Shown here: piece after piece, positions 2,402 through 19,081 of the stretch | Layout: every line of letters begins with the position of its first letter | Numbering within the stretch: position 1 is the stretch's first letter | Source of the DNA: Micromonospora parva | Lineage (GTDB): Bacteria; Actinomycetota; Actinomycetes; Mycobacteriales; Micromonosporaceae | Direction of reading: 5' to 3' | DNA: 64,000 nt | Assembly: GCF_000718515.1 (NCBI RefSeq) | Contig: NZ_JNZS01000010.1 | Coordinates: 186,001-250,000 of the forward strand | Made by a program: the position numbers and the translations under genes | Notes under the pieces: model-generated | What the model was told of the DNA's origin: nothing | The model's database searches: none | What the model saw: the letters and a program-made list of their open reading frames with translations, nothing else

Positions 2402-2583
2402 GCGTCCCGCGCGGTCCCCGCATTCCGGCGTCCCCGCGTTCCGCGCGGTCCTGGCGTTCCGCGCGGTCCTGGCGTTCCGCGCGGTCCGCGCCTCCCGGCG
2501 TCCCCGTGTCCGCGCGGTCCCCGCGTCCTGGCGTTCCGCGCGGTCCCCGGGTCCTCGGGTCCGCGCGTCCGCGCGGTCCCCGC
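2402..2583. repeat. GC-rich degenerate tandem repeat (about 18-bp unit)
   Basis: The gap between the GAF-ANTAR gene and the DUF2231 gene opens with copies of GGCGTTCCGCGCGGTCCT, two of them adjacent and nearly perfect, the rest expanded or degenerate. All frames through it translate to Arg/Ala/Pro-rich low complexity, so it is not coding. Confidence 0.75.
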
Positions 2584-2584
2584 T

Positions 2585-2661
2585 TGATCGACTCGCGTTT
2601 CTTGAAGTCGGGGTGTCCGGGTCGGTGGGACGGCCCGGTTTTCTGAAACCCGAGTGGATCA
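2585..2661. repeat. Dispersed palindromic element, family A, copy 1
   Basis: The ends TGATCGACTCGCGTTTC and GAAACCCGAGTGGATCA are imperfect inverted repeats of about 17 bp around a GTCGGGGTGTCC-containing core. Related copies occur near 14.5 kb and 49.3 kb, always in intergenic DNA, so this is a dispersed element rather than a private terminator. Confidence 0.8.
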
Positions 2662-2665
2662 CTCC

Positions 2666-2724
2666 TGATGTCGGGGTGTCCCGGCCGCCCGGATGGCGCG
2701 GTTTTCTGAAACGCGAGTGGATCA
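2666..2724. repeat. Family A element, partial copy lacking the left arm
   Basis: It repeats the core (GTCGGGGTGTCCCGG) and right arm (GGTTTTCTGAAACGCGAGTG) of the preceding element almost exactly, giving a tandem one-and-a-half copy. The rest of the gap to 2839 shows nothing recognisable apart from the GGAGG of the next gene. Confidence 0.7.
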
Positions 2725-2839
2725 GGGCGGGTGGTGTCCGTTCGTCCGGTCAGCGACGAGTCGGACCGTTTCGTTTCGTCTCGACCGACCCCGGGTAGCA
2801 CTCTGGTCAGGTGAGCTGCGCCGACCCGGGGGAGGACCG

Positions 2840-3325
2840 ATGCAGAGCCGGCTGCGGGTGCAGGGGCATCCGATCCAACCGATGCTGGTGACGTTCCCGC
2901 TCGGGCTGTTCGTCAGTGCCACCGTCTTCGATCTCACCGACGTCGTCGGCGGGCCCGCGTTCTTCGGCGAGGTCGGCTACTGGACGGGCATCGCCGCGCT
3001 CGTCGCTGCCGCGCTGACCGCCGTGGCCGGCATGGTCGACCTGTGGGACGTTCCGGGTGACCGTACCCGCCGCACCGCAGTCGCCTTCAATCTGGTGAAC
3101 GCGGTCATGGCCGCCATGTTCCTGCTCACCTGCCTGGTCCGGTCACATTCCCCGCAGCGCGGCGCGTCGGTCGCGATCCTGGTCACCGAGCTGGTCGCGT
3201 TGGCCGTCGGCGGGGTCGGCGTGCACCTGGGCGCCCGGCTGATGCGTCAGTTCGACAGCGGCCGTGTCGAGGCTGGCGGCCTGGACGCGCTCGCCGGCTC
3301 CACCGGCGAGATCGCCCGCCCCTGA
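2840..3325 (+). CDS. DUF2231 family membrane protein
   Basis: The ATG at 2840 follows GGGGGAGG with good spacing and gives 161 residues. The start RVQGHPIQPMLVTFPLGLF is the DUF2231 signature (HPxHP-like motif before the first helix). About four hydrophobic segments follow (around residues 12-32, 45-65, 80-100 and 110-130), then a polar tail. It is an inner-membrane protein whose family is sometimes linked to redox or cytochrome-like functions, but no haem ligand set beyond the N-terminal His is evident. Function unknown. Confidence 0.8.
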   Translation: MQSRLRVQGHPIQPMLVTFPLGLFVSATVFDLTDVVGGPAFFGEVGYWTGIAALVAAALTAVAGMVDLWDVPGDRTRRTAVAFNLVNAVMAAMFLLTCLVRSHSPQRGASVAILVTELVALAVGGVGVHLGARLMRQFDSGRVEAGGLDALAGSTGEIARP

Positions 3326-8959: not shown

Positions 8960-9000
8960 CCGACGTCGCCGAGCCGCCCGGCGCGGGGCAGGATGGTCCG

Positions 9001-9663
9001 GTGCGCATCCGCCCCATCTCGCCCGACCTGCTCGTCACCGAGCTGACCGGTCGGCTGGCCGACGCGGCCACCCGCGTCGCGAGCGCCGCCGCCGGGCCCG
9101 CGCGGCTACGGGTGGCAGTGGACGGCGCTCCCGCCGCCGGCGCCGACGAACTGGCCGCGGCGCTCGTCGACCCGCTGCGCGCCCAGGGCCACCCGGTGCT
9201 GCACGTCCGCGCCACCGACTTCCTGCGCCCGGCGTCGCTGCGCTTCGAGTTGGGCCGCACCAACCCGGACTCCTTCTACGAGGCCTGGGTCGACGAGGCC
9301 GGGCTGCGCCGCGAGGTGCTGGACCCGGCCGGTCCGGGCGGCAGCGGCCGACTGCTCCCGTCGCTCTGGGACGCCGACGCCGACCGGGCCAGCCGCGCCC
9401 GCTACGTCGACCTGGCACCCGGCGGCGTCGTCCTGGTCAGCGGCCCCCTGCTGCTCGGCGGCGGCCTGCCCTTCGACGTGACCGTCCACCTGGAGCTGTC
9501 CCCGGCGGCACTGCGCCGGCGTACCGAAGCAGCCCAGGAGTGGGCGCTGCCGGCCTTCGACAGGTACGCCGAGGAGGTCGTCCCGGCGAGCTTCGCCGAC
9601 GTGGTGGTACGCGCCGACGACCCCCGCCGACCGGCGCTCGTGGAGCCCGACCAGGACGGCTGA
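9001..9663 (+). CDS. Uridine kinase-like protein with degenerate P-loop
   Basis: A 220-residue protein that follows the actinobacterial 'uridine kinase' plan: LRVAVDGAPAAGADELAAAL at the P-loop position, a lid-like YVDLAPGGVVLVSGPLLLGG segment, and a C-terminal RRRTEAAQEWALPAFDRYAEEV helix. The Walker A lysine and the GxxxxGK(S/T) pattern are missing, so ATP binding in the usual way is doubtful. CAGGAT lies 6 nt before the GTG with no ribosome binding site, consistent with a leaderless message. Confidence 0.65.
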   Translation: MRIRPISPDLLVTELTGRLADAATRVASAAAGPARLRVAVDGAPAAGADELAAALVDPLRAQGHPVLHVRATDFLRPASLRFELGRTNPDSFYEAWVDEAGLRREVLDPAGPGGSGRLLPSLWDADADRASRARYVDLAPGGVVLVSGPLLLGGGLPFDVTVHLELSPAALRRRTEAAQEWALPAFDRYAEEVVPASFADVVVRADDPRRPALVEPDQDG

Positions 9664-9826
9664 CAACAACCGAGAATCTGTCGGTTTGCGCGGCTGATCG
9701 GGCGGGTACTCGCCCGGCTCACAGAGCGCGGGTGATCGCCCGCGCACCGAACGCGACCGTGACCGAGGCCCCGTGCCGCCGGCATCCGGTTCAGCTTGAG
9801 GCAGAGGCCCAGAAAGGCAGGCAGCG

Positions 9827-10225
9827 ATGCTCGTCCACGACACGGTCGGTACGACCCGGTCCCAGACGGAGATCGACCAGATCCGGCAGTCGCTCCAGGC
9901 GCGCTACGACGAGCTGACCGGCGAGTACGACCAGGCGGTGCTCCAGAGCCAGGTGCTGCGGCTGGTGGAGGTCGGCGACACCGCCGGCGACGACCAGGCC
10001 GACAGCGGCACCAAGACGGCCGAGCGGGACACCGCCCAGTCCCTGTTGCGCACCATCCTCGACCGCCGCGCCCAGTACGAGCACGCCCTCGGCCGGCTCG
10101 AGGAGGGCACCTACGGCTGGTGCGAGGGCTGTTCGGCGGCGATCCCGGTGGAGCGGTTGGAGATCTTCCCGTCCGCCACCACCTGCGTGACGTGCAAGCA
10201 GACGCGCGAGCGGCGGGCGGCCTGA
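9827..10225 (+). CDS. TraR/DksA-type zinc-finger protein
   Basis: A 132-residue protein with an N-terminal coiled coil (about residues 12-90) and a C-terminal four-cysteine zinc finger, GWCEGC...TTCVTC (near 102-125), the DksA/TraR layout. Such proteins enter the RNA polymerase secondary channel and modulate initiation. The coiled-coil tip lacks the classical DxxDxA of E. coli DksA as far as I can see, so mechanism is uncertain. The 163-bp gap upstream contains only the presumed promoter. Confidence 0.85.
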   Translation: MLVHDTVGTTRSQTEIDQIRQSLQARYDELTGEYDQAVLQSQVLRLVEVGDTAGDDQADSGTKTAERDTAQSLLRTILDRRAQYEHALGRLEEGTYGWCEGCSAAIPVERLEIFPSATTCVTCKQTRERRAA

Positions 10226-10273
10226 GCCACGCCAGCGGTTGCCGGTCGGTCCGCGACGCGATGGACTGCACCA

Positions 10274-11146
10274 ATGGGTGACATCCTGGTGGGCACCGCG
10301 TCCTGGACCGACCGCACACTGCTGGACTCGGGGTGGTACCCGCAGACCGCAGACACCCCGGAGAAGCGGTTGGCGTACTACGCCCGGCAGTTCCCACTCG
10401 TCGAAGTGGACGCCACCTACTACTCCCCGCCGGCCGAGGCGACCGCGCGGCTGTGGGCCGAGCGCACCCCGCCCGGCTTCACCTTCAACATCAAGGCGTT
10501 CAGCCTGCTCACCGGGCACCCCACCCGGGTCAGCGCGCTCTACAAGGACCTGCGCCCCGAGACCGACAAGAAGAACGTCTACCCCGACGACCTGCCCGCG
10601 CAGTCGTACGAGGAGGTGTGGACGCGCTTCCTGTCCGCGTTGGACCCGCTGGTAGAGGCCGGCAAACTGGGTGCGCTGCTGTTCCAGTTCCCGCCCTGGT
10701 TCACCATCAAGCGGGCCAACAAGCAGTACCTGCTGGAGGTGGCGAAGCGCTGCGCGCCCCTGCGCCCGGTGTACGAGTTCCGGCACGCCTCCTGGTTCGA
10801 CGGCGACAACGCCGACGAGACCCTGGCCTTCCTGCGCGAGCACCACCTGCCGTACGTGTGCGTGGACATGCCGCAGGGCCACCGCTCGTCGCTCCCCCCG
10901 GTGCTGGCCGCCACCGCGGACCTCGCGGTGATGCGTTTCCACGGCCACAGCGACAAGTGGACCAGCAAGGACATCCACGAGAAGTTCGGCTACCACTACT
11001 CCAAGCGGGAGTTGGCCGACTGGGCGCCGAAGCTGCGCGAGCTGGCCGACGAGGCCGGGCAGACCCACGTGCTCATGAACAACTGCTACCGCGACTATGC
11101 GCAGACCAACGCGAAGACCCTCGCCGGTCTCCTCGACGTGGACTGA
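10274..11146 (+). CDS. DUF72 family protein (copy 1)
   Basis: A 290-residue TIM-barrel-like protein of the DUF72 (YecE) family: ILVGTASWTDRTLLDSGWYP at the start, QFPLVEVDATYYSPPAEATA, FTFNIKAFSLLTGHP and a C-terminal VLMNNCYRDYAQTNAKTL. Biochemical role is unestablished. TGGACT sits 6 nt before the ATG without a clear ribosome binding site. A second, divergent DUF72 gene lies 760 bp away on the other strand. Confidence 0.88.
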   Translation: MGDILVGTASWTDRTLLDSGWYPQTADTPEKRLAYYARQFPLVEVDATYYSPPAEATARLWAERTPPGFTFNIKAFSLLTGHPTRVSALYKDLRPETDKKNVYPDDLPAQSYEEVWTRFLSALDPLVEAGKLGALLFQFPPWFTIKRANKQYLLEVAKRCAPLRPVYEFRHASWFDGDNADETLAFLREHHLPYVCVDMPQGHRSSLPPVLAATADLAVMRFHGHSDKWTSKDIHEKFGYHYSKRELADWAPKLRELADEAGQTHVLMNNCYRDYAQTNAKTLAGLLDVD

Positions 11147-11257
11147 CCTCACCCGATCCGGGTGGTGCCGCATCACCCGCCCCGCGGCGAGGGTGGACGC
11201 GGTGGGTACGGCCGTCCGCAGACGGTCGACGCCGGAGACGACACGGAGGTGACGGGG

Positions 11258-11443
11258 ATGACGGTTCGACTGGTGACGGATCGACGGCGTGGTGCCGTCC
11301 TGCACGTGGTCGGCTCGGCCGACAACGCCCGGCGAGCACCGCAGGGCAGCCCGGTGCGGGCCCGCCGTGGGCCGGCGGGGCCGCCGCGCCGCGCCGATGA
11401 CCGACGGTGGGACACCACGGAACGGGGGTCGACCAATGGCTGA
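11258..11443 (+). CDS. Possible small Arg-rich protein
   Basis: An ATG behind GGAGGTGACGGGG opens a 61-residue frame (MTVRLVTDRRRGAVLHVVGS at the start) that overlaps the start of the DUF2267 gene by 8 bp. The first 20 residues look protein-like; the rest is Arg/Pro-rich low complexity. It may be real but could be chance. Confidence 0.25.
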   Translation: MTVRLVTDRRRGAVLHVVGSADNARRAPQGSPVRARRGPAGPPRRADDRRWDTTERGSTNG

Positions 11444-11864
11444 CTCGATGATCTCTGCGTTCGAGTCCTCGCTGGACAAGACGAACATCATTCTCAAGGA
11501 CATCGAGGACGCCTACGGTTGGCCGAAGGAGCGACGCAACCAGTCGTACGCGGCCCTGCGCACGGTGCTGCACCTGCTGCGCGACCGGCTGCCGGTGAAC
11601 GAGAGCGTGGAGTTCGCCCAGCAGTTGCCGGTGCTGGTCCGGGGCATCTACTTCGACGGCTGGGTGCCGTCGGACGTGCCGATCAAGCTCAACCGCGACG
11701 ACTTCCTGTACGAGGTGCGGCAGGGCTTCCCGTACGACGCGGAGGGTGGCCCGGAGCGGGTGACGCAGGTGGTGCTGGACACGCTGCGCCGCCACGTCAC
11801 CCAGGGTGAGTGGCAGGACGTGAAGGACACCATGCCCAGGGATCTCGCGGTGATGATGCCGTGA
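11436..11864 (+). CDS. DUF2267 domain protein
   Basis: A 142-residue, all-helical protein with the DUF2267 pattern: NQSYAALRTVLHLLRDRLPV near residues 33-52, AQQLPVLVRGIYFDGWVPSD near 60-80, and RVTQVVLDTLRRHVTQGEW near the end. The family is cytoplasmic and of unknown function. The ATG is taken because it lines up with the family N-terminus; no strong ribosome binding site is evident beyond GGGGGT. Confidence 0.85.
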   Translation: MADSMISAFESSLDKTNIILKDIEDAYGWPKERRNQSYAALRTVLHLLRDRLPVNESVEFAQQLPVLVRGIYFDGWVPSDVPIKLNRDDFLYEVRQGFPYDAEGGPERVTQVVLDTLRRHVTQGEWQDVKDTMPRDLAVMMP

Positions 11865-11878
11865 CGGCCTGACAGCGT

Positions 11879-11908
11879 GGGCCCGCCCGACCGTCGTCGG
11901 GCGGGCTC
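11879..11908. terminator. Bidirectional hairpin between DUF2267 and DUF72 genes
   Basis: GCCCGCCCGAC and GTCGGGCGGGC pair perfectly over 11 bp with a CGTC loop, 15 nt after the DUF2267 stop. It touches the stop codon of the converging DUF72 gene. Confidence 0.75.
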
Positions 11909-12686
11909 AGTCGTCGGTGCCGGCTGCCTCGGCAGCGGTGGGCACCCGCGACACCGGGTGCCCGGCCCGGCGGGCCAGCGCGGCGAACGCGACAGCGTCC
12001 ACGACCGCCGCGCCGCCCGGATCGTTGTTGAAATAGACGTACGCCGGCTCGTCCGGGCCGAAGTCGTCGGTCAGCCGGCGCACCCAGGACCGCAGCGCGG
12101 CGCGACCATAGCGGGGCCAGGGCCGCGCCCGCCCCTCGTGCAGCCGCAGGTAGCCGAAGTCGGTGGTGCGCCAGCGGGGGGCGACCGGCCGTCCGAGCCG
12201 GTCCGCCCACACCAGCGCGGCCCGACGCCGTTCCAGCACCGCCCGGGTCGCGTCGGTCCACCAGGAGGGGTGCCGGGGCTCGACAGCGACCCGCACCTGC
12301 GCCGGGAACAGTCGCAGCGTCGCGTCCAGCGCCTCGACGTCCGCCCGCAGGTTCGGTGGGAGTTGCAGCAGCACCGGGCCGAGCCGGTCACCGAGCGCGG
12401 TGGCCCGGCCGAGGAACCGGGCCACCGGCTCCGCCGGGTCGCGCAGTCGCTTGATGTGGGTGAGGTAGCGGCTCATCTTCACCGCCACGCAGAAGTCCGC
12501 CGGGGTCCGCGCCCGCCAGGCGGCGAAGGTGTCCCGCTCGGGCAGCCGGTAGAAGGCGTTGTTGACCTCGACAGTGGCGAACCCGGCCGCGAAGTGCTCC
12601 AGCCAGAGCCGCTGGGGCAGACCCCGCGGGTAGAAACGGCCGCGCCAGTCCCGGTACTGCCAGCCGGACGTGCCCACCACGATCAC
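11907..12686 (-). CDS. DUF72 family protein (copy 2)
   Basis: A 259-residue DUF72 protein: IVVGTSGWQYRDWRGRFYP at the start, FATVEVNNAFYRLPERDTFA, FCVAVKMSRYLTHIKRL, and a C-terminal AYVYFNNDPGGAAVVDA. It belongs to the shorter YecE-like branch and differs from the plus-strand copy at 10.3 kb. The GTG at 12686 is chosen because the family begins at this point and CAGGAT lies 6 nt upstream; an upstream in-frame extension to 12875 is Ser/Arg-rich and not family-like. Confidence 0.85.
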   Translation of the reverse strand: MIVVGTSGWQYRDWRGRFYPRGLPQRLWLEHFAAGFATVEVNNAFYRLPERDTFAAWRARTPADFCVAVKMSRYLTHIKRLRDPAEPVARFLGRATALGDRLGPVLLQLPPNLRADVEALDATLRLFPAQVRVAVEPRHPSWWTDATRAVLERRRAALVWADRLGRPVAPRWRTTDFGYLRLHEGRARPWPRYGRAALRSWVRRLTDDFGPDEPAYVYFNNDPGGAAVVDAVAFAALARRAGHPVSRVPTAAEAAGTDD

Positions 12687-12843
12687 CAGCCCATCCTGGC
12701 ACTCTGCGCCGCCGCTCGCGAACCGCCCGTGTCGCCCCGGTTCGGCGTCTACGGTGAGGGTTAGAGAAGATCGCGCGTGGGGTACCACCCGCAGCACGAC
12801 GGACCCCGGCGCACGGCGGGGCGGCACACCCGAGGGAGTACCG

Positions 12844-13149
12844 ATGGCACTCAACGATGACGACATGCAGACCACTGGCGGCGGCGGCGTGGAGGGCCCG
12901 GCCGACGGTGGCGCGACCCCCGGTCAGCACGACGGTGGTGCTGACGGTGGCGCGGAGGGTCCCGCCGACGGTGGTGCCACCCCGGGTCAGCACGACGGTG
13001 GCGCTGACGGCAGCGCGGAGGGTCCCGCCGACGGTGGTGCCACCCCGGGTCAGCACGACGGTGGCGCCGACGGCAGCGCGGAGGGTCCCGCCGACGGCGG
13101 TGCCACCCCGGGCCAGCAGGACGGTGGCGCTGACGGCAGCGCCCGGTAG
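12844..13149 (+). CDS. Acidic tandem-repeat peptide, possible substrate of the adjacent hydroxylase
   Basis: A 101-residue protein: a short leader-like start (MALNDDDMQTTGGGGV) then four 21-residue units beginning EGPADGGATPGQHDGG. It consists almost only of Gly, Ala, Asp, Glu, Pro, Thr, Gln and His. His occurs once in each of units 1-3 and is Gln in unit 4. There is no signal peptide or hydrophobic stretch, so it should be soluble and disordered. GAGGGAG precedes the ATG. The stop is 9 bp before the JmjC/cupin-4 gene, which implies co-expression. Similar Gly/Asp-rich small proteins exist in streptomycetes without a clear function, as far as I recall. Confidence 0.75.
   Translation: MALNDDDMQTTGGGGVEGPADGGATPGQHDGGADGGAEGPADGGATPGQHDGGADGSAEGPADGGATPGQHDGGADGSAEGPADGGATPGQQDGGADGSAR
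12892..13143 (+). repeat. Four in-frame 63-bp tandem repeats
   Basis: Four head-to-tail 63-bp copies encode the repeat units of the acidic peptide. Copies differ mainly at third positions, plus Gly/Ser before the last Ala and His/Gln in copy 4, which suggests selection for the protein sequence. Confidence 0.9.
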
Positions 13150-13158
13150 CGGCACGCC

Positions 13159-14445
13159 ATGACGTACCTCGACCCGCCGGGCGGCCACCACGGCCGCCCG
13201 GCGGTTCCGTCCGCCGAGGCCACCGCCGCGTTGGCCCGCTGCGTCTCGGTCGAACCGGCCAAGTTCGCCGCCGCGCACTGGGGGCACACCCCGCTGCTCT
13301 CGCGCGCCGCCGACCTGCCCGACCCGTCCGGCTTCACCGACCTGCTCAGCCCCGCCGACGCCGACGAACTGCTGAGTCGGCGCGGTCTGCGTACCCCGTT
13401 CCTGCGCGTGGCCAAGGACGGCCAGTTGGTCGCGGCGTCGCGCTGGACCGGCGGCGGCGGCGCGGGCGCCGAGATCGGCGACCAGGTCCTCGACGAGCGG
13501 GTCCTGGAGCAGTACGCCTCCGGGGCCACCCTGGTGTTGCAGGGTCTGCACCGGATCTGGCCACCGCTCGTCGACTTCGCCCGCGATCTGGGCCTCGCGC
13601 TCAACCAGCCGTTGCAGATCAACGCCTACCTGACCCCGGCCGGCAGTCAGGGCTTCGCCACCCACTACGACACCCACGACGTGTTCGTGCTCCAGGTCGA
13701 CGGCCGCAAGCACTGGCGCATCCACCCGCCGGTGCTGCCCGACCCGCTGGAGAAGCAGCAGTGGGGTGGCCGCGCCGACGAGGTCGGTGCCACCGCGCAG
13801 GGCCCGGCCGCGCTGGACGTGGTGCTCGCCCCCGGTGACGCCCTCTACCTGCCCCGGGGGTGGCTGCACAGCGCGCAGGCGCAGGACGCCAGCTCGCTGC
13901 ACCTGACCGTGGGCATCCGCGCGTTCACCCGCTACGCCCTGGTCGAGGAGTTGTTGGCGCTGGCCGCCGAGGACCAGCGACTGCGAGCCAGCCTGCCGTT
14001 CGGCACCGACGTCGCCGACCCGGACGCCATCGAGCCGGAGCTGACCGAGACCGTGGAGGCGTTGCGGGACTGGCTGCTGCGCGTCGACCCGGGCGCGGTC
14101 GCCGCGCGGCTGCGCCAGCGCGCCTGGCCGGCCGCCCGCCCGGCGCCGATCCGGCCGCTCGCCCAGGCCGACGCGCTGGCCACCCTGGACGCCGACTCCC
14201 GGCTCACACTGCGGCCGGGCCTGCGCTGGCAGTTGGTGCCGCACGATCCGGAGACGGTGGCGGTGCGGCTTTTCGATCGCACCATCACCCTGCCGGCGAG
14301 CTGCGAGCCGGCCACCCGCGCCCTGCTCACCGGCACCGTCACCCGGGTCGGTGACCTGCCGGGTCTACCCGACGACGCCGACCGGGTCACCCTGGCCCGA
14401 CGGCTGCTCCGCGAGGCAGTGCTCGTCCCGGCTCTGACCGGCTGA
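13159..14445 (+). CDS. JmjC/cupin-4 Fe(II)/2-oxoglutarate-dependent protein hydroxylase
   Basis: A 428-residue enzyme of the cupin-4 family (ROXA/MINA53/NO66-like). The iron triad is intact: H169-x-D171 in THYDTHDVFVLQVDGRKHW and H237 in LYLPRGWLHSAQAQD; K186 or nearby basic residues could hold 2-oxoglutarate. A helical/winged C-terminal region (about 255-428) matches the dimerisation and winged-helix parts of the family. Known members hydroxylate Arg or His side chains, mostly on ribosomal proteins. Its tight linkage to a His-containing repeat peptide suggests a dedicated substrate, which is inference. The gene ends inside a 20-bp repeat. Confidence 0.9.
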   Translation: MTYLDPPGGHHGRPAVPSAEATAALARCVSVEPAKFAAAHWGHTPLLSRAADLPDPSGFTDLLSPADADELLSRRGLRTPFLRVAKDGQLVAASRWTGGGGAGAEIGDQVLDERVLEQYASGATLVLQGLHRIWPPLVDFARDLGLALNQPLQINAYLTPAGSQGFATHYDTHDVFVLQVDGRKHWRIHPPVLPDPLEKQQWGGRADEVGATAQGPAALDVVLAPGDALYLPRGWLHSAQAQDASSLHLTVGIRAFTRYALVEELLALAAEDQRLRASLPFGTDVADPDAIEPELTETVEALRDWLLRVDPGAVAARLRQRAWPAARPAPIRPLAQADALATLDADSRLTLRPGLRWQLVPHDPETVAVRLFDRTITLPASCEPATRALLTGTVTRVGDLPGLPDDADRVTLARRLLREAVLVPALTG

Positions 14446-14482
14446 TCGAGCGGTCCCGGCCGTGATCGAGCGGTCCCGGCCG
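14443..14482. repeat. Two perfect 20-bp direct repeats
   Basis: TGATCGAGCGGTCCCGGCCG occurs twice head to tail, starting on the stop codon of the hydroxylase gene; a third TGATCGA begins the palindrome that follows. Confidence 0.85.
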
Positions 14483-14560
14483 TGATCGACTCGCTTTTCA
14501 GGAAGTCGCGGTGTCCGGGAGGCAGGGACAGCGCGGTTTCCAGGAAGCCGAGTCGATCAC
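14482..14560. repeat. Dispersed palindromic element, family A, copy 2
   Basis: Ends GTGATCGACTCG and CGAGTCGATCAC are perfect 12-bp inverted repeats. The interior (TTTTCAGGAAGTCGCGGTGT) matches the elements at 2.6 and 49.3 kb. It lies between the convergent hydroxylase and membrane-protein genes; the rest of the gap to 14614 shows nothing else. Confidence 0.85.
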
Positions 14561-14614
14561 GACGGGGCGCGCACGGCGCGAGGGCCCGCGCCGGCGGGAC
14601 CGCCGCACGCGGGG

Positions 14615-15277
14615 TCAGCGGCCAAGGACCAGCAGCAGCACGGTGGTCAGCAGACCGGCACCGAGGACCACGGTGATCGGCCGGGGACCGAGCACCGCGT
14701 GCCGGCGGTCGGCCAGCACCCGCGCCGGCACCAGACCCACCAGCGGGCCGAGCAGCGTCACCACCAGCGCCAGCACCGGCAGACCGACCGCCAGGTCGCC
14801 GCCGTAGCCGACACCGAGCGCGCGGGCACCGGCACCCAGCGCGTACGCCAGCACCCCGCCGGCCACCCCGCAGAGCGCCAGCAGCGGGTTGACCGAGCCC
14901 GGCAGCTCGCCCGGCTGACCGGCCCGGTCCAGCAGGTCGCGGGCCTTGGCGAGCAGCGGCACCGGGTCGGTGGCCCCGACGCCGTTCGCCGGGGCGGGCG
15001 GGCCGCCGAGGCGACGGGCGCCGAGGCGCGAACGGACCAGCTGCCACAGGTGGGCCACCTCGGCGTCGACCCGTTCCTGCAGCTCACGGGCGGCGACCAG
15101 CTCCTCCTCGGCGCTGCGGAGCTGCTCGGCCGCGTCGGCGACGGCCCGCTCGGCGGCGGCGCACTGCCGCTCGTGCCAGGTGTGCGCCTCGGCGCGCTGT
15201 TCGCGCACCCGCGCGGTGAGGTCGGCCAGCCGCCGCAGCTGCGCCGCGTACGTCTCGCTGGTCACCGGTTCGTTCAT
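14615..15277 (-). CDS. Coiled-coil membrane protein of the FtsK cassette
   Basis: A 220-residue protein with a long coiled coil (about residues 8-85, rich in Glu/Ala/Arg/Gln) followed by three hydrophobic segments near 130-155, 163-190 and 200-219, so the coil should face the cytoplasm. The start overlaps the stop of the FtsK gene (ATGA), implying coupled translation. A role as membrane anchor or channel partner for the soluble ATPase is plausible but not shown. No family name is assigned. Confidence 0.7.
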   Translation of the reverse strand: MNEPVTSETYAAQLRRLADLTARVREQRAEAHTWHERQCAAAERAVADAAEQLRSAEEELVAARELQERVDAEVAHLWQLVRSRLGARRLGGPPAPANGVGATDPVPLLAKARDLLDRAGQPGELPGSVNPLLALCGVAGGVLAYALGAGARALGVGYGGDLAVGLPVLALVVTLLGPLVGLVPARVLADRRHAVLGPRPITVVLGAGLLTTVLLLVLGR

Positions 15278-17952
15278 CGCGTCGGTCCATACGGGATGAT
15301 CACCTGTCCGGTGCGGTGGACCGCCCGGTCGAAGAAGAGGCCCCGCCACGGGCGGGGATACCAGTCCGGGCCGCCGGTGCCCGGGTAGAGCGAGGAACCC
15401 AGCTCCCCGCCGTGCGCGTCCAGGGCCACCCACGCGCCGATCTGGTCCGTGCGGGCGGCCGGCCCACCCAGGTCGGCGCGCATCCGGGCGACACCCCGCC
15501 ACCAGGCCAGCACGTGCGTGCGCCGCTCCGGCCCGTCGTGCAGGATCCGGCGCAGCTGCTCCAGACCGGTCCGCCGACCCGCCCGGACGGCCAGCGCGCC
15601 CGCTGCCGCGTCGACTGCGAACAACAGCAGGTAGTGCGGGCTCCCCGGGCCGCCGCTGAGCCCGTCGGCCGTCTCGGCCATCAGCTCGCCGACGGTCTCC
15701 TCGTCGTACCAGGCGGCGTCGTCGGCCAGGTCGTCGTAGAGGGCGCGGGCGACCGGGTCGGCGTCCGCGTCGAGGCAGGCGATGGAGAACCGGGCGGTGC
15801 CCGGCGGGTGCTGGCGGGCCAGCGACCGGGCCGCCGCGTCCAGCACCGCGCACGCCTCGTCGACCCGGGTGCCGAGCACCGCGAGGTTGCGGCCCGGGGC
15901 GCGCGGCAGCCGCAGCGCCGCCGAGCGGGACTGCACGTCGATGATCTCGCCGAGCAGCGCCACCGGGTTACGCGGCGCGCTGCCGTCCGGCGGCGCGGCC
16001 AGCGCCCGGAAGTCCGGGGCGTCGGTCAGCCGGGGGATCGCGTCGCCGTCGAAGAGCCGGGCGGGCGCCGCGTCGGGGGCGCGCATCCGCCACAGCCGGT
16101 GCTGCAACCCGCTCCAGGTCTCCCAGTCGCTGGCCGACGGGATGCGGGCGACCTCGTTGCCCTCCACCATGCCCGACTCCGCGTTGACCACCGCGTGCCA
16201 ACGCGGCAGGGACTGCGCGGCGTCGTTGCGCTCGGCCAGGATCCGCAACGCCTTGGGCAGCGCGATCCGCAACGTGAACTGGGCGACCAGCGCCGGACGG
16301 CCCCACAGCGCCTCGATGCCCCGCACGTCCTGCGAGGCGAGCACCAGGTGGATGCCCTGGGACCGGCCGCGGCGAGCCAGGTCCTCCAACAGGTCGGCCG
16401 CCTCCCGGGCGACCACGTCCCGGCCGGCCAGCAGCATCTGGAACTCGTCGACGACGGCGACGATCCGGGGCCAGTGCCCGGTCGGGTCGACCGCGCGCAG
16501 CTCGGCCAGCTTGGTCACCTCGTGCTTCTTGGCCGCGTCGGCGCGTCGGCGCAACTCCTCGGCGAGGAAGCGCAGCAGCGCCAGCCCGAACTCCCGGTCG
16601 GTGTTGACGTTGATGCCGACCAGGCGCATGTGCGGCAACCAGCTCGGGTCGCGCCGGCCCTGCGCGAACCGCGCGAAGGAGACCCCCTCCTTGAAATCCA
16701 GCAGGTAGAACTCCAGCTCGGCGGGGGAGTAGCGGGCCGCCAGGGCGCCGATCCAGGCGAAGATCAGGTTGGTCTTGCCGGTGCCGGACGGCCCACCGAT
16801 CAGCGCGTGCGGTGGATAGTCGCCCAGCGTCACCCGCACCGGCCGGCCGTGCGGGCCCTCACCGATCGGCGCGGTCAACCCGTCGGCGGAGTCCTCCCGC
16901 CACATCAGCTCGGGCGGGGGCAGCAGGTCGGTGAAGGGGGTCGGCGGCGGGCCCGCGTTCACCCGGGCGGCCACGTCCCGGCAGGTCTCGGTGACCAGCG
17001 TCGCCGGTGGCGGAGGGTCCAGCCGGACCGGCAGCCCGGCCGAACCGCCGATCCGCGCGCCGGACGCTTCGGCCACCACCCGGGTCACCGTCGGGTCCTC
17101 CGGCAACGGCGCACCGTGCACCACCAGGTGTACGCCGCAGGCGGCGCCGGCACGCACCACCCGGTCCAGTTGCCCGCGCTCGTGCCGGTTCAGCTCCTCC
17201 CCGCCGAGCAGCACCGCCACCCGCCACGGTTCGGGTCGTCGGCCGGTCGCCGCCGCCAGTTCGCGCAGCGACGCGTACTCCCCGGCGAGGACCGTCTCGT
17301 TGATCCGGCGGATCTGCTCCACCAGGTCGTCCAGCAGCGGACCCAACCCGCCCGGGCCGACGAAGGTGAGCAGCCCCGCCGTGCCCAACGGGGCGAACCC
17401 GGCCAGACCACCGCCGAGCTGGTCCGGGTCGTACCCGATCAGTCGTACCGCCCCGGGGTCGGCGCGGCCGACGGCCCGCAGCAGCAACGCGGCCACCACC
17501 GCGTCGCAGCCGGCGCGGTCGTTTCCGGAGAGGTGGACGTGCCCGGCGTCGAGCAGCGGCACCAGCGCGGGCACCGGGTCGACGCCGTCGATCCCGACCG
17601 TGCCGACCCGCAGCGCGCCGGGCGGCTCGGCCCGGCGGGCGGGCGTCGGCGCCCACCCGGCCCAGTCGGCCCCCGCGCAGCCGGGGGCCTCCTGCCGGGC
17701 CGCGTCGGCGGCCCGCCGGGCCAGCTCCGCGATCCGGGCCGAGTAGCGGGCGTCGATCTCGGCGATGCGGCGGTCGCGTTGGGCGCCCACCCGCTGCGGT
17801 ACGGCGGCGGCCGCCCGCTGGACCCGGGCCAGTCGTTCCCGGCCGGCGGTCAGCTCGGCCTGGGCGGCGGACAGCCGGGTACGGGTGGCGCCGAGCGCCT
17901 CGGCGAGGATGTCCCGGACCCGGCTGGCCAGCTGACCGCGCCGGTCAGCCAT
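15274..17952 (-). CDS. Soluble FtsK/SpoIIIE-type ATPase
   Basis: An 892-residue protein. Residues 1-90 form a coiled coil; about 110-350 is a cassette-specific region (VHLSGNDRAGCDAVVAALLL); the FtsK motor lies at about 370-620 with Walker A GGPSGTGKTN near residue 388 and Walker B RIVAVVDEFQMLL near 498. It has no N-terminal membrane helices and no DNA-reading gamma domain, unlike the chromosome translocase FtsK. It sits in a four-gene run with 4- and 8-bp overlaps. It may pump protein, as in type VII systems, or DNA. The ATG overlaps the upstream stop (ATGGCTGA). Confidence 0.85.
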   Translation of the reverse strand: MADRRGQLASRVRDILAEALGATRTRLSAAQAELTAGRERLARVQRAAAAVPQRVGAQRDRRIAEIDARYSARIAELARRAADAARQEAPGCAGADWAGWAPTPARRAEPPGALRVGTVGIDGVDPVPALVPLLDAGHVHLSGNDRAGCDAVVAALLLRAVGRADPGAVRLIGYDPDQLGGGLAGFAPLGTAGLLTFVGPGGLGPLLDDLVEQIRRINETVLAGEYASLRELAAATGRRPEPWRVAVLLGGEELNRHERGQLDRVVRAGAACGVHLVVHGAPLPEDPTVTRVVAEASGARIGGSAGLPVRLDPPPPATLVTETCRDVAARVNAGPPPTPFTDLLPPPELMWREDSADGLTAPIGEGPHGRPVRVTLGDYPPHALIGGPSGTGKTNLIFAWIGALAARYSPAELEFYLLDFKEGVSFARFAQGRRDPSWLPHMRLVGINVNTDREFGLALLRFLAEELRRRADAAKKHEVTKLAELRAVDPTGHWPRIVAVVDEFQMLLAGRDVVAREAADLLEDLARRGRSQGIHLVLASQDVRGIEALWGRPALVAQFTLRIALPKALRILAERNDAAQSLPRWHAVVNAESGMVEGNEVARIPSASDWETWSGLQHRLWRMRAPDAAPARLFDGDAIPRLTDAPDFRALAAPPDGSAPRNPVALLGEIIDVQSRSAALRLPRAPGRNLAVLGTRVDEACAVLDAAARSLARQHPPGTARFSIACLDADADPVARALYDDLADDAAWYDEETVGELMAETADGLSGGPGSPHYLLLFAVDAAAGALAVRAGRRTGLEQLRRILHDGPERRTHVLAWWRGVARMRADLGGPAARTDQIGAWVALDAHGGELGSSLYPGTGGPDWYPRPWRGLFFDRAVHRTGQVIIPYGPTR

Positions 17953-19081
17953 CAGAGCCCCGACGCGTCGGCGCGTCCCGCCACGGGCTGCCCGAGCGCG
18001 GGGGTGGCCCGCCGGGGCGCGGCGACAGCCCGTCCGGGCGCGGCGGCAGGCCACCGGAGCGCTGCGCGGCGGGCGTGCCCGGCCGCTGCACCGCACCGCC
18101 GGGGCGGGGAACCCCGACCGCTGGCCGTCCGGTCCCACCCGGTCGCTGCGCGCCCGCCGGTTGCCCGGTGCGCGCCGGCTGCCCCGCGTCGCCTCGCGGA
18201 CCCGCGCCCGCCGGTTCTCTCGCGCCGCCGGCTTCTCTCGCGCCGCCGACCGGCAGGTCCCGCCCGAGGCGGGCGAGCAGCAGCCCGGTCGCCACCCCGG
18301 CGGTCACCGCGGAGTCGGCGGCGTGCGGTGGCTCCCCTGAGGAGCGCGGCGGCGGCATCCGGCACACCCGGGTCAGCAGCGTCTCCAGCACCGGCGCCGG
18401 CAGCCCGGGCAGCAGGTCACGGACGCGCCCGTCCAACTCGCCGCGCAGCCGACCGAGGTCGCTGGCGCGGGGTGGGTGACCGAGCAGCTCACCGGCCAGC
18501 TCGCGCAGCAGCGGTGGCGCCAGCGCCGCCATGCCCAGCCCCACGTCGGCGGAGGCCCGGCGCAGCTCCGTGCGGAGCCGGTCCCGGTCGCCGGAGCGGA
18601 CCCCACCCGCCACCCGGCGCAGCAACTCCTGGGAGTCGCCCACCCGCTCGTCGGGTTCGTCGTCGGTGCCCTCGCGCCCGCCGGTCAGCTCGGCCACCCG
18701 CACCGACCACCAGCGGCGCATCCGCACCTGCTCGGCCGGCTCCGGTGCCACGGCGGTCGGCCCGGCGGCCGGTGGCGTGTCGTGTCGGGGAGCGCGTTGC
18801 TCGGGTCGGGGGGCCGGGCCGCCGTCCGCGCCGAGCCCGATCGCCGTCAGGTAGGCCGACAGCTGCTCCTGCGCCACCCGCAGCGCGTAGCCGGCGCTCT
18901 CGGCGTGCTCGGTGGCGGCGGACAGCTCGGGCACCCCCATCGGGTTGGCCGACTCCTGTCGTACCCAGCGCAGCCGCTCCGCGGCCAGGCCGAACTTCTC
19001 CAGCGCCTGCCCGAGCAGGGCGTGCGGGAACTCCTCGGTGGCGGCACGGACCTGCCCGCCGACATCCTCGATGATGGACAT
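17945..19081 (-). CDS. Pro/Gly-rich hypothetical protein of the FtsK cassette
   Basis: A 378-residue protein. The N-terminus (1-85) is helical (ALLGQALEKFGLAAERLRWV), the middle (about 115-265) is helical and ordered (LLRELAGELLGHPPRASDLG), and the last 100 residues are a low-complexity Pro/Gly/Arg tail (RPGGTGRPAVGVPRPGG). No known domain is recognised. Tight overlap with the FtsK gene and a 6-bp gap to the helical gene upstream place it in one operon. Confidence 0.65.
   Translation of the reverse strand: MSIIEDVGGQVRAATEEFPHALLGQALEKFGLAAERLRWVRQESANPMGVPELSAATEHAESAGYALRVAQEQLSAYLTAIGLGADGGPAPRPEQRAPRHDTPPAAGPTAVAPEPAEQVRMRRWWSVRVAELTGGREGTDDEPDERVGDSQELLRRVAGGVRSGDRDRLRTELRRASADVGLGMAALAPPLLRELAGELLGHPPRASDLGRLRGELDGRVRDLLPGLPAPVLETLLTRVCRMPPPRSSGEPPHAADSAVTAGVATGLLLARLGRDLPVGGAREAGGAREPAGAGPRGDAGQPARTGQPAGAQRPGGTGRPAVGVPRPGGAVQRPGTPAAQRSGGLPPRPDGLSPRPGGPPPRSGSPWRDAPTRRGSDG

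Follow-up and report, generated by a model that had tools for sequence, protein, structure and literature searches.

A small repeat peptide and a JmjC/cupin-4 oxygenase, encoded side by side in the soil actinomycete Micromonospora parva, appear to form a dedicated substrate-enzyme pair, a view that is well supported by our genomic comparisons. In the explanation that we favor and consider fairly probable, an N-terminal leader directs the repeated hydroxylation of a stress peptide that is disordered and probably stays inside the cell, most likely on its Asp residues and probably at their C-beta. The pair would be the Micromonosporaceae form of an Actinomycetota-wide cassette made up of a precursor, a JmjC oxygenase and usually a Suc_Fer-like protein, a cassette that is apparently widespread in actinobacteria and undescribed.

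The peptide and oxygenase genes

Both genes are found on the same strand of the window, the whole stretch of 64,000 nucleotides that was analyzed (Table 1), and they share a reading frame, with 9 bp between the stop codon of the peptide and the ATG of the enzyme. The original prediction, made from this DNA alone, had described a 101-residue peptide with four 21-residue units, a 9-bp gap and a 428-residue enzyme, and this description proved exact to the base. The peptide is composed of a 16-residue leader, the four 21-residue units, which are spaced by 63 nt (TRF score 424), and a final Arg; PGQHDGG is present in units 1-3 and PGQQDGG in unit 4, also as predicted.

Table 1. Features of the peptide-oxygenase pair in the window
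Feature	Position	Strand	Remarks
Putative SigB-type promoter motif, -35 GTTAGA, N14, -10 GGGTAC	12760..12785	+	Resembles SCO5555p
Ribosome-binding site GAGGGAG	12832..12838	+	By-eye reading of sequence
Peptide ORF (precursor or substrate)	12844-13149	+	101 aa, ATG start, computed pI 4.05
Leader MALNDDDMQTTGGGGV, motif LxDDDMxT	12844..12891	+	
Core unit 1, EGPADGGATPGQHDGGADGGA	12892..12954	+	
Core unit 2	12955..13017	+	
Core unit 3	13018..13080	+	
Core unit 4	13081..13143	+	Gln replacing His
JmjC/cupin-4 oxygenase	13159-14445	+	428 aa
JmjC_2 domain match	13612..13929	+	Residues 152-257, with H169, D171, K184, H237
C-terminal winged-helix-like domain	14170..14442	+	Three strands then helices; secondary structure of model

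Differences among the four units of the peptide are mainly silent (pS 0.333 versus pN 0.022), and comparison with 13 orthologous 101-aa peptides gave a pooled pS of 0.379 and a pooled pN of 0.040, with a pN/pS for the peptide of about 0.1. By this measure purifying selection acts on the peptide, and its ORF is a real gene. A chance or antisense ORF was rejected because of this selection and because the peptide recurs in relatives against downstream and antisense controls, as described below. The source genome (7.1 Mb in 87 contigs) contains one peptide match and one PF08007 match. Searches of Pfam and NCBIfam with the peptide matched no model at E up to 1, and neither did searches of NCBIfam with six of its relatives or of Pfam with 19 relatives (E up to 1). 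Two other candidates were set aside, namely plasmid cargo, the peptide having no match in a plasmid collection, and an RNA element, an Rfam search of positions 9000-19000 having given no match. Two relatives of the peptide (P0008 and P0017) bear the database name 'BatC protein', and P0017 matched none of the NCBIfam models. In another database protein (P0025) the leader and one repeat unit form an in-frame fusion with the beginning of the enzyme, which could be the result of a deletion or of an assembly collapse of the repeats.

The oxygenase matches JmjC_2 (PF08007) with an E of 1.7e-29 and 102.3 bits, the curated cut-off being 22, as well as Cupin_8 with an E of 7.4e-10, and it is 96-97% identical to Micromonospora proteins. 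Its H169-x-D171...H237 iron site, previously read as intact, is indeed so, since these three residues are invariant across 22 aligned sequences and, together with K184, are kept in 40/40 peptide-bearing enzymes of the phylum survey described below. The conserved Lys of the JmjC site has a role with 2-oxoglutarate. Most peptide-less enzymes keep the catalytic residues equally. Among the matches listed, NO66 and MINA53 are the closest solved relatives, and the enzyme has the NO66/MINA53/YcfD fold with a C-terminal winged helix. Database names of related enzymes include 'NO66', 'MINA' and 'L16 Arg81 hydroxylase'.

Recurrence of the pair in relatives and across the phylum

An enzyme-profile scan of named genome contigs gave at least 553 relatives, of which the best 80 were kept as named loci. 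In 79 of these best 80, a repeat core is present on the same strand within 1.2 kb upstream of the enzyme, and the one exception (L127) is a contig end with 123 bases upstream. The same search in this set returned 0/75 downstream and 0/80 antisense. The peptide is at most 60 nt from the start of the enzyme match in 66 of 74 of these loci, with the match often starting about 20 codons into the gene. As assembled, L079, L100 and L119 have an interrupted peptide frame, and the contig starts within the peptide in L065 and L114; these five were dropped along with L099 and L127, and the complete named peptides numbered 72. Three or four units are present in 50 of the 75 called peptides of this best-80 set. 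Among the sampled genomes of the genus, the source genome included, the peptide was found in 81/81 and the enzyme in 79/81; in the two with no enzyme match (G305 and G344) the peptide match is at most 60 bases from a contig end, and in G316 and G332 the enzyme match is weak or partial only.

In a survey of 296 evenly drawn actinobacterial genomes, 46 had an enzyme relative and 12 had the peptide by profile. All 11 strong peptide-profile matches are beside an enzyme, and the weakest one (G072) is on another contig. Fifty-two distinct enzyme places were taken, and with two of them (L047 and L131) cut by contig ends, 50 loci were testable. Forty of them have an Asp-rich ORF on the strand of the enzyme in the 900 nt before it, including a weak member (L032) that is acidic and has no leader, and 10 have none. 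As a control, applying the test downstream and antisense at all 52 loci yielded 4 Asp-rich ORFs, 1 of them with the leader motif. In a tree of the survey enzymes, 8 of the 10 peptide-less relatives fall outside the peptide-bearing clade and two (L133 and L147) fall inside. The dedicated pair had been proposed beforehand, together with a search of actinomycete cupin-4 homologues for an upstream Gly/Asp repeat ORF and with the warning that homologous enzymes mostly lacking the peptide would count against it. The upstream core in 79/80 named loci (best 80 of at least 553) and the Asp-rich ORF in 40/50 survey loci give that proposal genomic support.

The leader pattern [LIVMP]x[DEN][DENQA][DEQ][IM], followed by at least 5 Asp, was found in 34 of the 40 survey peptides against 0.23 expected from shuffles, a somewhat generous contrast, as the shuffles covered 60 residues per peptide and the real search the whole ORF. 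Those outside the 34 are L030, L031 and L032, which have no motif, L027 and L029, which have variants, and L153, whose peptide carries ITDNDI in its correct frame. The cores behind the shared leader differ, with EGPADGGANPGGHDGGADGSA, DGTDGDATDG, SADGTDQGVxGGTYGPRDA and PTEDDENLDAPGEHSQDTGDE as examples. A constant leader with changing cores is the pattern that would be expected from leader-guided modification, and it supports the RiPP-like layout that had been suggested for the pair; as in RiPPs, a small precursor with a conserved leader and a separate core is encoded beside a putative modifying enzyme. When a divergent core was used as search query it gave a single match, perhaps because small ORFs are rarely annotated.

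Two other arrangements were seen around related JmjC enzymes. In L133, whose JmjC enzyme is a distant relative with no peptide, a TfuA-like gene (2516-3085, minus strand; PF07812, E 6.5e-29) lies immediately upstream of the enzyme, a hint that a further type of RiPP cluster employs the JmjC family. In L144 (from about 1191, plus strand) and L148 (from about 1214, reverse complement), small ORFs upstream of JmjC enzymes share the tail RSDGND and are perhaps a different precursor family.

Putative promoter and gene neighborhood

The motif upstream of the peptide (Table 1) resembles SCO5555p, which is given as a SigB-type promoter, GTTAGA-N13-GGGTAC, in the available text of PMC8346170. With a pattern that was set after viewing an alignment of upstream regions, GTT-N15..18-GGGTA was found in the 250 nt preceding the peptide at 39 of 72 named loci (from the best of at least 553 relatives) versus 129/7220 control windows. 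All 39 loci are in genera that, going by genus name, we take to be Micromonosporaceae; the motif is absent in Salinispora, in several Actinoplanes relatives and in other families. The window holds seven sites of this pattern over both strands, the one at the pair included. The putative SigB-type promoter may drive stress expression of the pair. A further GTT-N-GGGTA promoter-like site was noted at 9684-9708, before a DksA/TraR zinc-finger gene (9827-10222) that is possibly a stress gene near the cassette.

The pair has as neighbors a DUF2267 gene with a DUF72 gene on either side, the DksA/TraR zinc finger and an FtsK-like gene. The DUF72 genes lie just before the cassette (10274-11146, plus strand, and 11910-12686, minus strand), and several Micromonosporaceae loci have DUF72 neighbors too. 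Among the families listed, relatives of the local neighbors were found in Micromonosporaceae loci only, so their presence was taken as synteny and they were rejected as partner genes. ORF families of at least 90 aa common to three or more of 21 loci were also compared, in flanks of up to 6 kb and with families partly annotated, and no peptidase or transporter was recognized at a constant place. The sole transporter-like family recognized by eye, an ABC permease, was seen in 3 of the 21 loci, at distances of 4.8 to 6 kb and with no constant strand. Starting at the stop codon of the enzyme, 20 bp are perfectly duplicated in tandem (TGATCGAGCGGTCCCGGCCG, 2.3 copies, 14443-14489).

Possible leader recognition by the enzyme

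The C-terminal domain of the enzyme is a candidate leader-binding (RRE-like) domain, and in the AlphaFold model its strand-strand-strand-helix order fits an RRE. The C-terminal 91 residues had no PF05402 (PqqD-type) match in Pfam, and no RRE chain was among the 50 matches listed in each of two solved-relative listings, a result that says little. Since the peptide and enzyme genes share a frame, the natural read-through chain could be folded as it stands. The alignment for the source chain had 47 rows, 14 of them paired, and in the resulting model the leader block 1-10 had a pLDDT of 87 with a strand at 9-12, the enzyme was confident, and residues 14-119 were below pLDDT 50. Because a strand has to pair with another, the leader presumably lies on the enzyme in this model. 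In a second chain, from Modestobacter L121 (41 rows, 10 paired), the leader block 1-10 had a pLDDT of 32 with no strand, and the leader was not docked. Docking of the leader on the enzyme, seen in one of the two AlphaFold models, is suggestive only.

A Suc_Fer-like third gene

Only outside Micromonosporaceae, a Suc_Fer-like gene is found downstream of the enzyme on the same strand; the Actinokineospora copy matches PF06999 with an E of 8.5e-16. A Suc_Fer partner in the source genome was rejected, with no PF06999 match in its 7.1 Mb. In the survey, this neighbor is present in 33/40 peptide-bearing versus 0/10 peptide-less loci (Fisher p 1.9e-6, ignoring kinship), the peptide-bearing loci that do not have it being L001, L022, L024, L032, L040, L045 (contig end) and L153, and it is present in 18 of the 80 named loci (best 80 of at least 553). 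PF06999 was above cut-off in 66 of the 296 survey genomes and is commoner than the pair, so PF06999 proteins would also have other roles.

Aim32 and Apd1 are described in the available text of PMC8482512 as thioredoxin-like ferredoxins with the motif CX8C-HX3H. Like them, the Suc_Fer partners have CX8C (52/52) and keep the first His. Unlike them, the second His is replaced by Asp (HX3D) in 96% of the 52, and an invariant Cys is found close to the C-terminus, so that the ligand set CX8C plus HX3H is not that of the Suc_Fer partners. Encoded next to an iron oxygenase, such an Fe-S-type protein may give redox support or carry out a second step.

Probable target residue and alternative explanations

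The original prediction favored the His of the repeat units as the target and called for a comparison of repeat number and His conservation across homologues. The number of units does vary, as shown above for the best of at least 553 relatives, and so does the His. Across 192 canonical units, the position preceding DGGADG is occupied by His 104 times, by Gln 54 times, by Arg 14 times and by other residues 20 times; besides His, it can be Q, R, S, T, V, E or A. No His follows the leader in 16 of the 72 complete named peptides (from the best 80 of at least 553), and these include peptides from Micromonospora whose enzymes are 83-94% identical to the source enzyme. The peptide of Micromonospora avicenniae (L056) is an example of a natural form free of His. 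Of the 34 leader-bearing survey cores, 20 have no His, 18 no Arg, 21 no Asn and 29 no Lys; Asp is present in 34/34, with at least 6 in each, and Gly is also present in 34/34. His was therefore rejected as target on conservation. The reading in which the His of PGQHDGG is the residue hydroxylated, by analogy with the action of NO66 and MINA53 on ribosomal proteins, draws on the fact that the closest solved homologues, among the matches listed, are histidyl hydroxylases and that His is the commonest residue at the unit position, but the His-free named peptides and survey cores make it highly improbable. Asp is also more frequent in the survey cores than any other residue (0.287), and its presence could for that reason reflect charge or disorder. 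Enzymes of the cupin-4 JmjC branch hydroxylate His or Arg at C3, and FIH hydroxylates Asn, Asp and His at this carbon, which makes C3 of Asp a natural guess, though still a guess. The modified residue would then be Asp, hydroxylated at C-beta. Asp beta-hydroxylation in RiPPs by other oxygenases has been reported (PMC13060819, PMC13097080, in their available text).

The remaining explanations bear on what the peptide is for. It could be an unmodified acidic disordered stress protectant, a hydrophilin comparable to GsiB of Bacillus, with the co-regulated enzyme acting elsewhere, for example on a ribosomal protein. Hydrophilins have Gly over 6% and a hydrophilicity index over 1; the values computed for the peptide are Gly 32.7%, GRAVY -0.94 and pI 4.05. 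In favor of this reading are this composition, the SigB-type promoter motif and the retention of the peptide in 81/81 sampled genomes of the genus. We nevertheless regard this as quite unlikely, because a constant leader with changing cores and a phylum-wide adjacency better suit a substrate, and 8/10 peptide-less relatives fall outside the peptide-bearing clade. A role of the peptide as a binding partner instead, attached to the enzyme by its leader and serving as inhibitor, iron donor or assembly factor, would agree with the AlphaFold model that places the leader alone confidently and leaves the core disordered, and Asp-rich cores could hold Fe(II); this is very unlikely in our judgment, since it leaves the selected, near-identical tandem units and their variation in number unexplained and docking failed in the L121 model. 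A classical secreted RiPP, with the core cut by general proteases into short bioactive units for export by general transporters, has in its favor the leader, the multi-unit core and the RiPP-type genes near related JmjC enzymes (the TfuA-like gene by L133 and the RSDGND ORFs by L144 and L148). Against it, the ABC permease is infrequent (3/21 loci), distant and on differing strands, no signal-like stretch was seen by eye in the peptide, and its presence in 81/81 sampled genomes is not patchy, so we give this reading hardly any chance. The absence of a recognized peptidase or transporter at a constant place among the ORFs of at least 90 aa around 21 loci, the acidic and predicted-disordered nature of the peptide and its genus-wide retention together favor a cell-internal stress protein over a secreted antibiotic.

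Proposed mechanism and relation to known systems

Under leader-guided Asp hydroxylation, the explanation that we favor, the enzyme would recognize the conserved N-terminal leader, perhaps by means of the winged-helix domain at its C-terminus. Residues along the unstructured repeat core, most likely Asp and probably at C-beta, would be hydroxylated at the Fe(II)/2-oxoglutarate site. The resulting peptide would be acidic, would carry several hydroxyl groups and would probably remain in the cell; it would be expressed from a general-stress promoter and could plausibly serve as a polymer that binds metal or protects against stress. Several points count against this explanation: the possibility that Asp is kept for charge or disorder, the presence of Gly, too, in every core, docking in one of two models, the six survey peptides outside the leader-motif set, the catalytic residues kept equally in most peptide-less enzymes, the two peptide-less enzymes inside the clade, the lack of a recognized conserved peptidase or transporter family beside the pair in the 21 loci compared, the activity on His of the nearest solved homologues and the absence of the third gene from the source genome. 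A broader form of it, a phylum-wide stress-controlled JmjC system that makes a poly-(beta-hydroxyaspartyl) intracellular metallophore or metal buffer, with a Cys/His/Asp-ligated Fe-S redox partner and a JmjC branch specialized for Asp within low-complexity repeats, seems unlikely as a whole.

The enzyme is like the human histidyl hydroxylases NO66 (RIOX1) and MINA53 (RIOX2) in its PF08007 domain, its HxD...H site and its whole fold, including the C-terminal domain. Unlike those enzymes, which act on His of ribosomal proteins, it adjoins a dedicated repeat peptide of a family that is often His-free. The L16 arginyl hydroxylase YcfD/ROXA is further in sequence (profile E of about 2e-14 versus 1e-42 for NO66) and, to our knowledge, has no repeat-peptide neighbor. 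A precedent for JmjC action on a RiPP precursor comes from PbsQ and BipG, ornithine hydroxylases of the JmjC or cupin type that belong to biphenomycin-like RiPPs (PMC12257519, PMC12707348). Like the enzyme described here, they are encoded beside the gene of a ribosomal precursor, theirs being the one they act on. As far as the available text of these sources goes, PbsQ and BipG carry out one step in a multi-enzyme antibiotic cluster with a protease and a transporter, unlike the source JmjC enzyme, which is the sole recognized modifying enzyme and which has relatives elsewhere that are accompanied by a Suc_Fer-like protein. Beta-hydroxy-Asp in a ribosomally made peptide, the product proposed here, has counterparts in the nitrilobacillins, in which an MNIO hydroxylates Asp (PMC13060819), and in a graspetide cluster, where SmaO does so (PMC13097080). 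In the available text of these two papers, the nitrilobacillin MNIO belongs to an oxygenase family unrelated to JmjC, and neither system is described with a leader and an Asp-rich tandem repeat beside a PF08007 enzyme.

A 2025 paper (PMC12710340) reports RRE-like folds in PF08007 proteins of fish and algae and states in one sentence that their closest bacterial JmjC homologues occur in RiPP-like contexts; its available text describes neither the precursor family, the leader, the Asp-rich repeats nor the Suc_Fer partner. RiPP-type JmjC hydroxylases (PbsQ and BipG) and PF08007 in RiPP-like contexts are thus already known from the available text of these sources. Our literature search, with most subscription papers outside its scope, found the precursor family and the cassette not described and returned no relevant paper for the core strings. 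The earlier view that no system of this form had been described agrees with this search in what concerns the pair itself, but has to be qualified by the mention of PF08007 in RiPP-like contexts in PMC12710340.

Bacterial cupin-4 JmjC enzymes, which are often named after ribosomal or histone modifiers, gain here a likely dedicated substrate, and the dedicated pair can be tested with two genes. The peptide family, which has no Pfam or NCBIfam match in the members tested, has divergent forms across the phylum and is now linked to Suc_Fer-like proteins. If the hydroxylation of Asp proves true, it would add a JmjC route to hydroxyaspartate-rich peptides.
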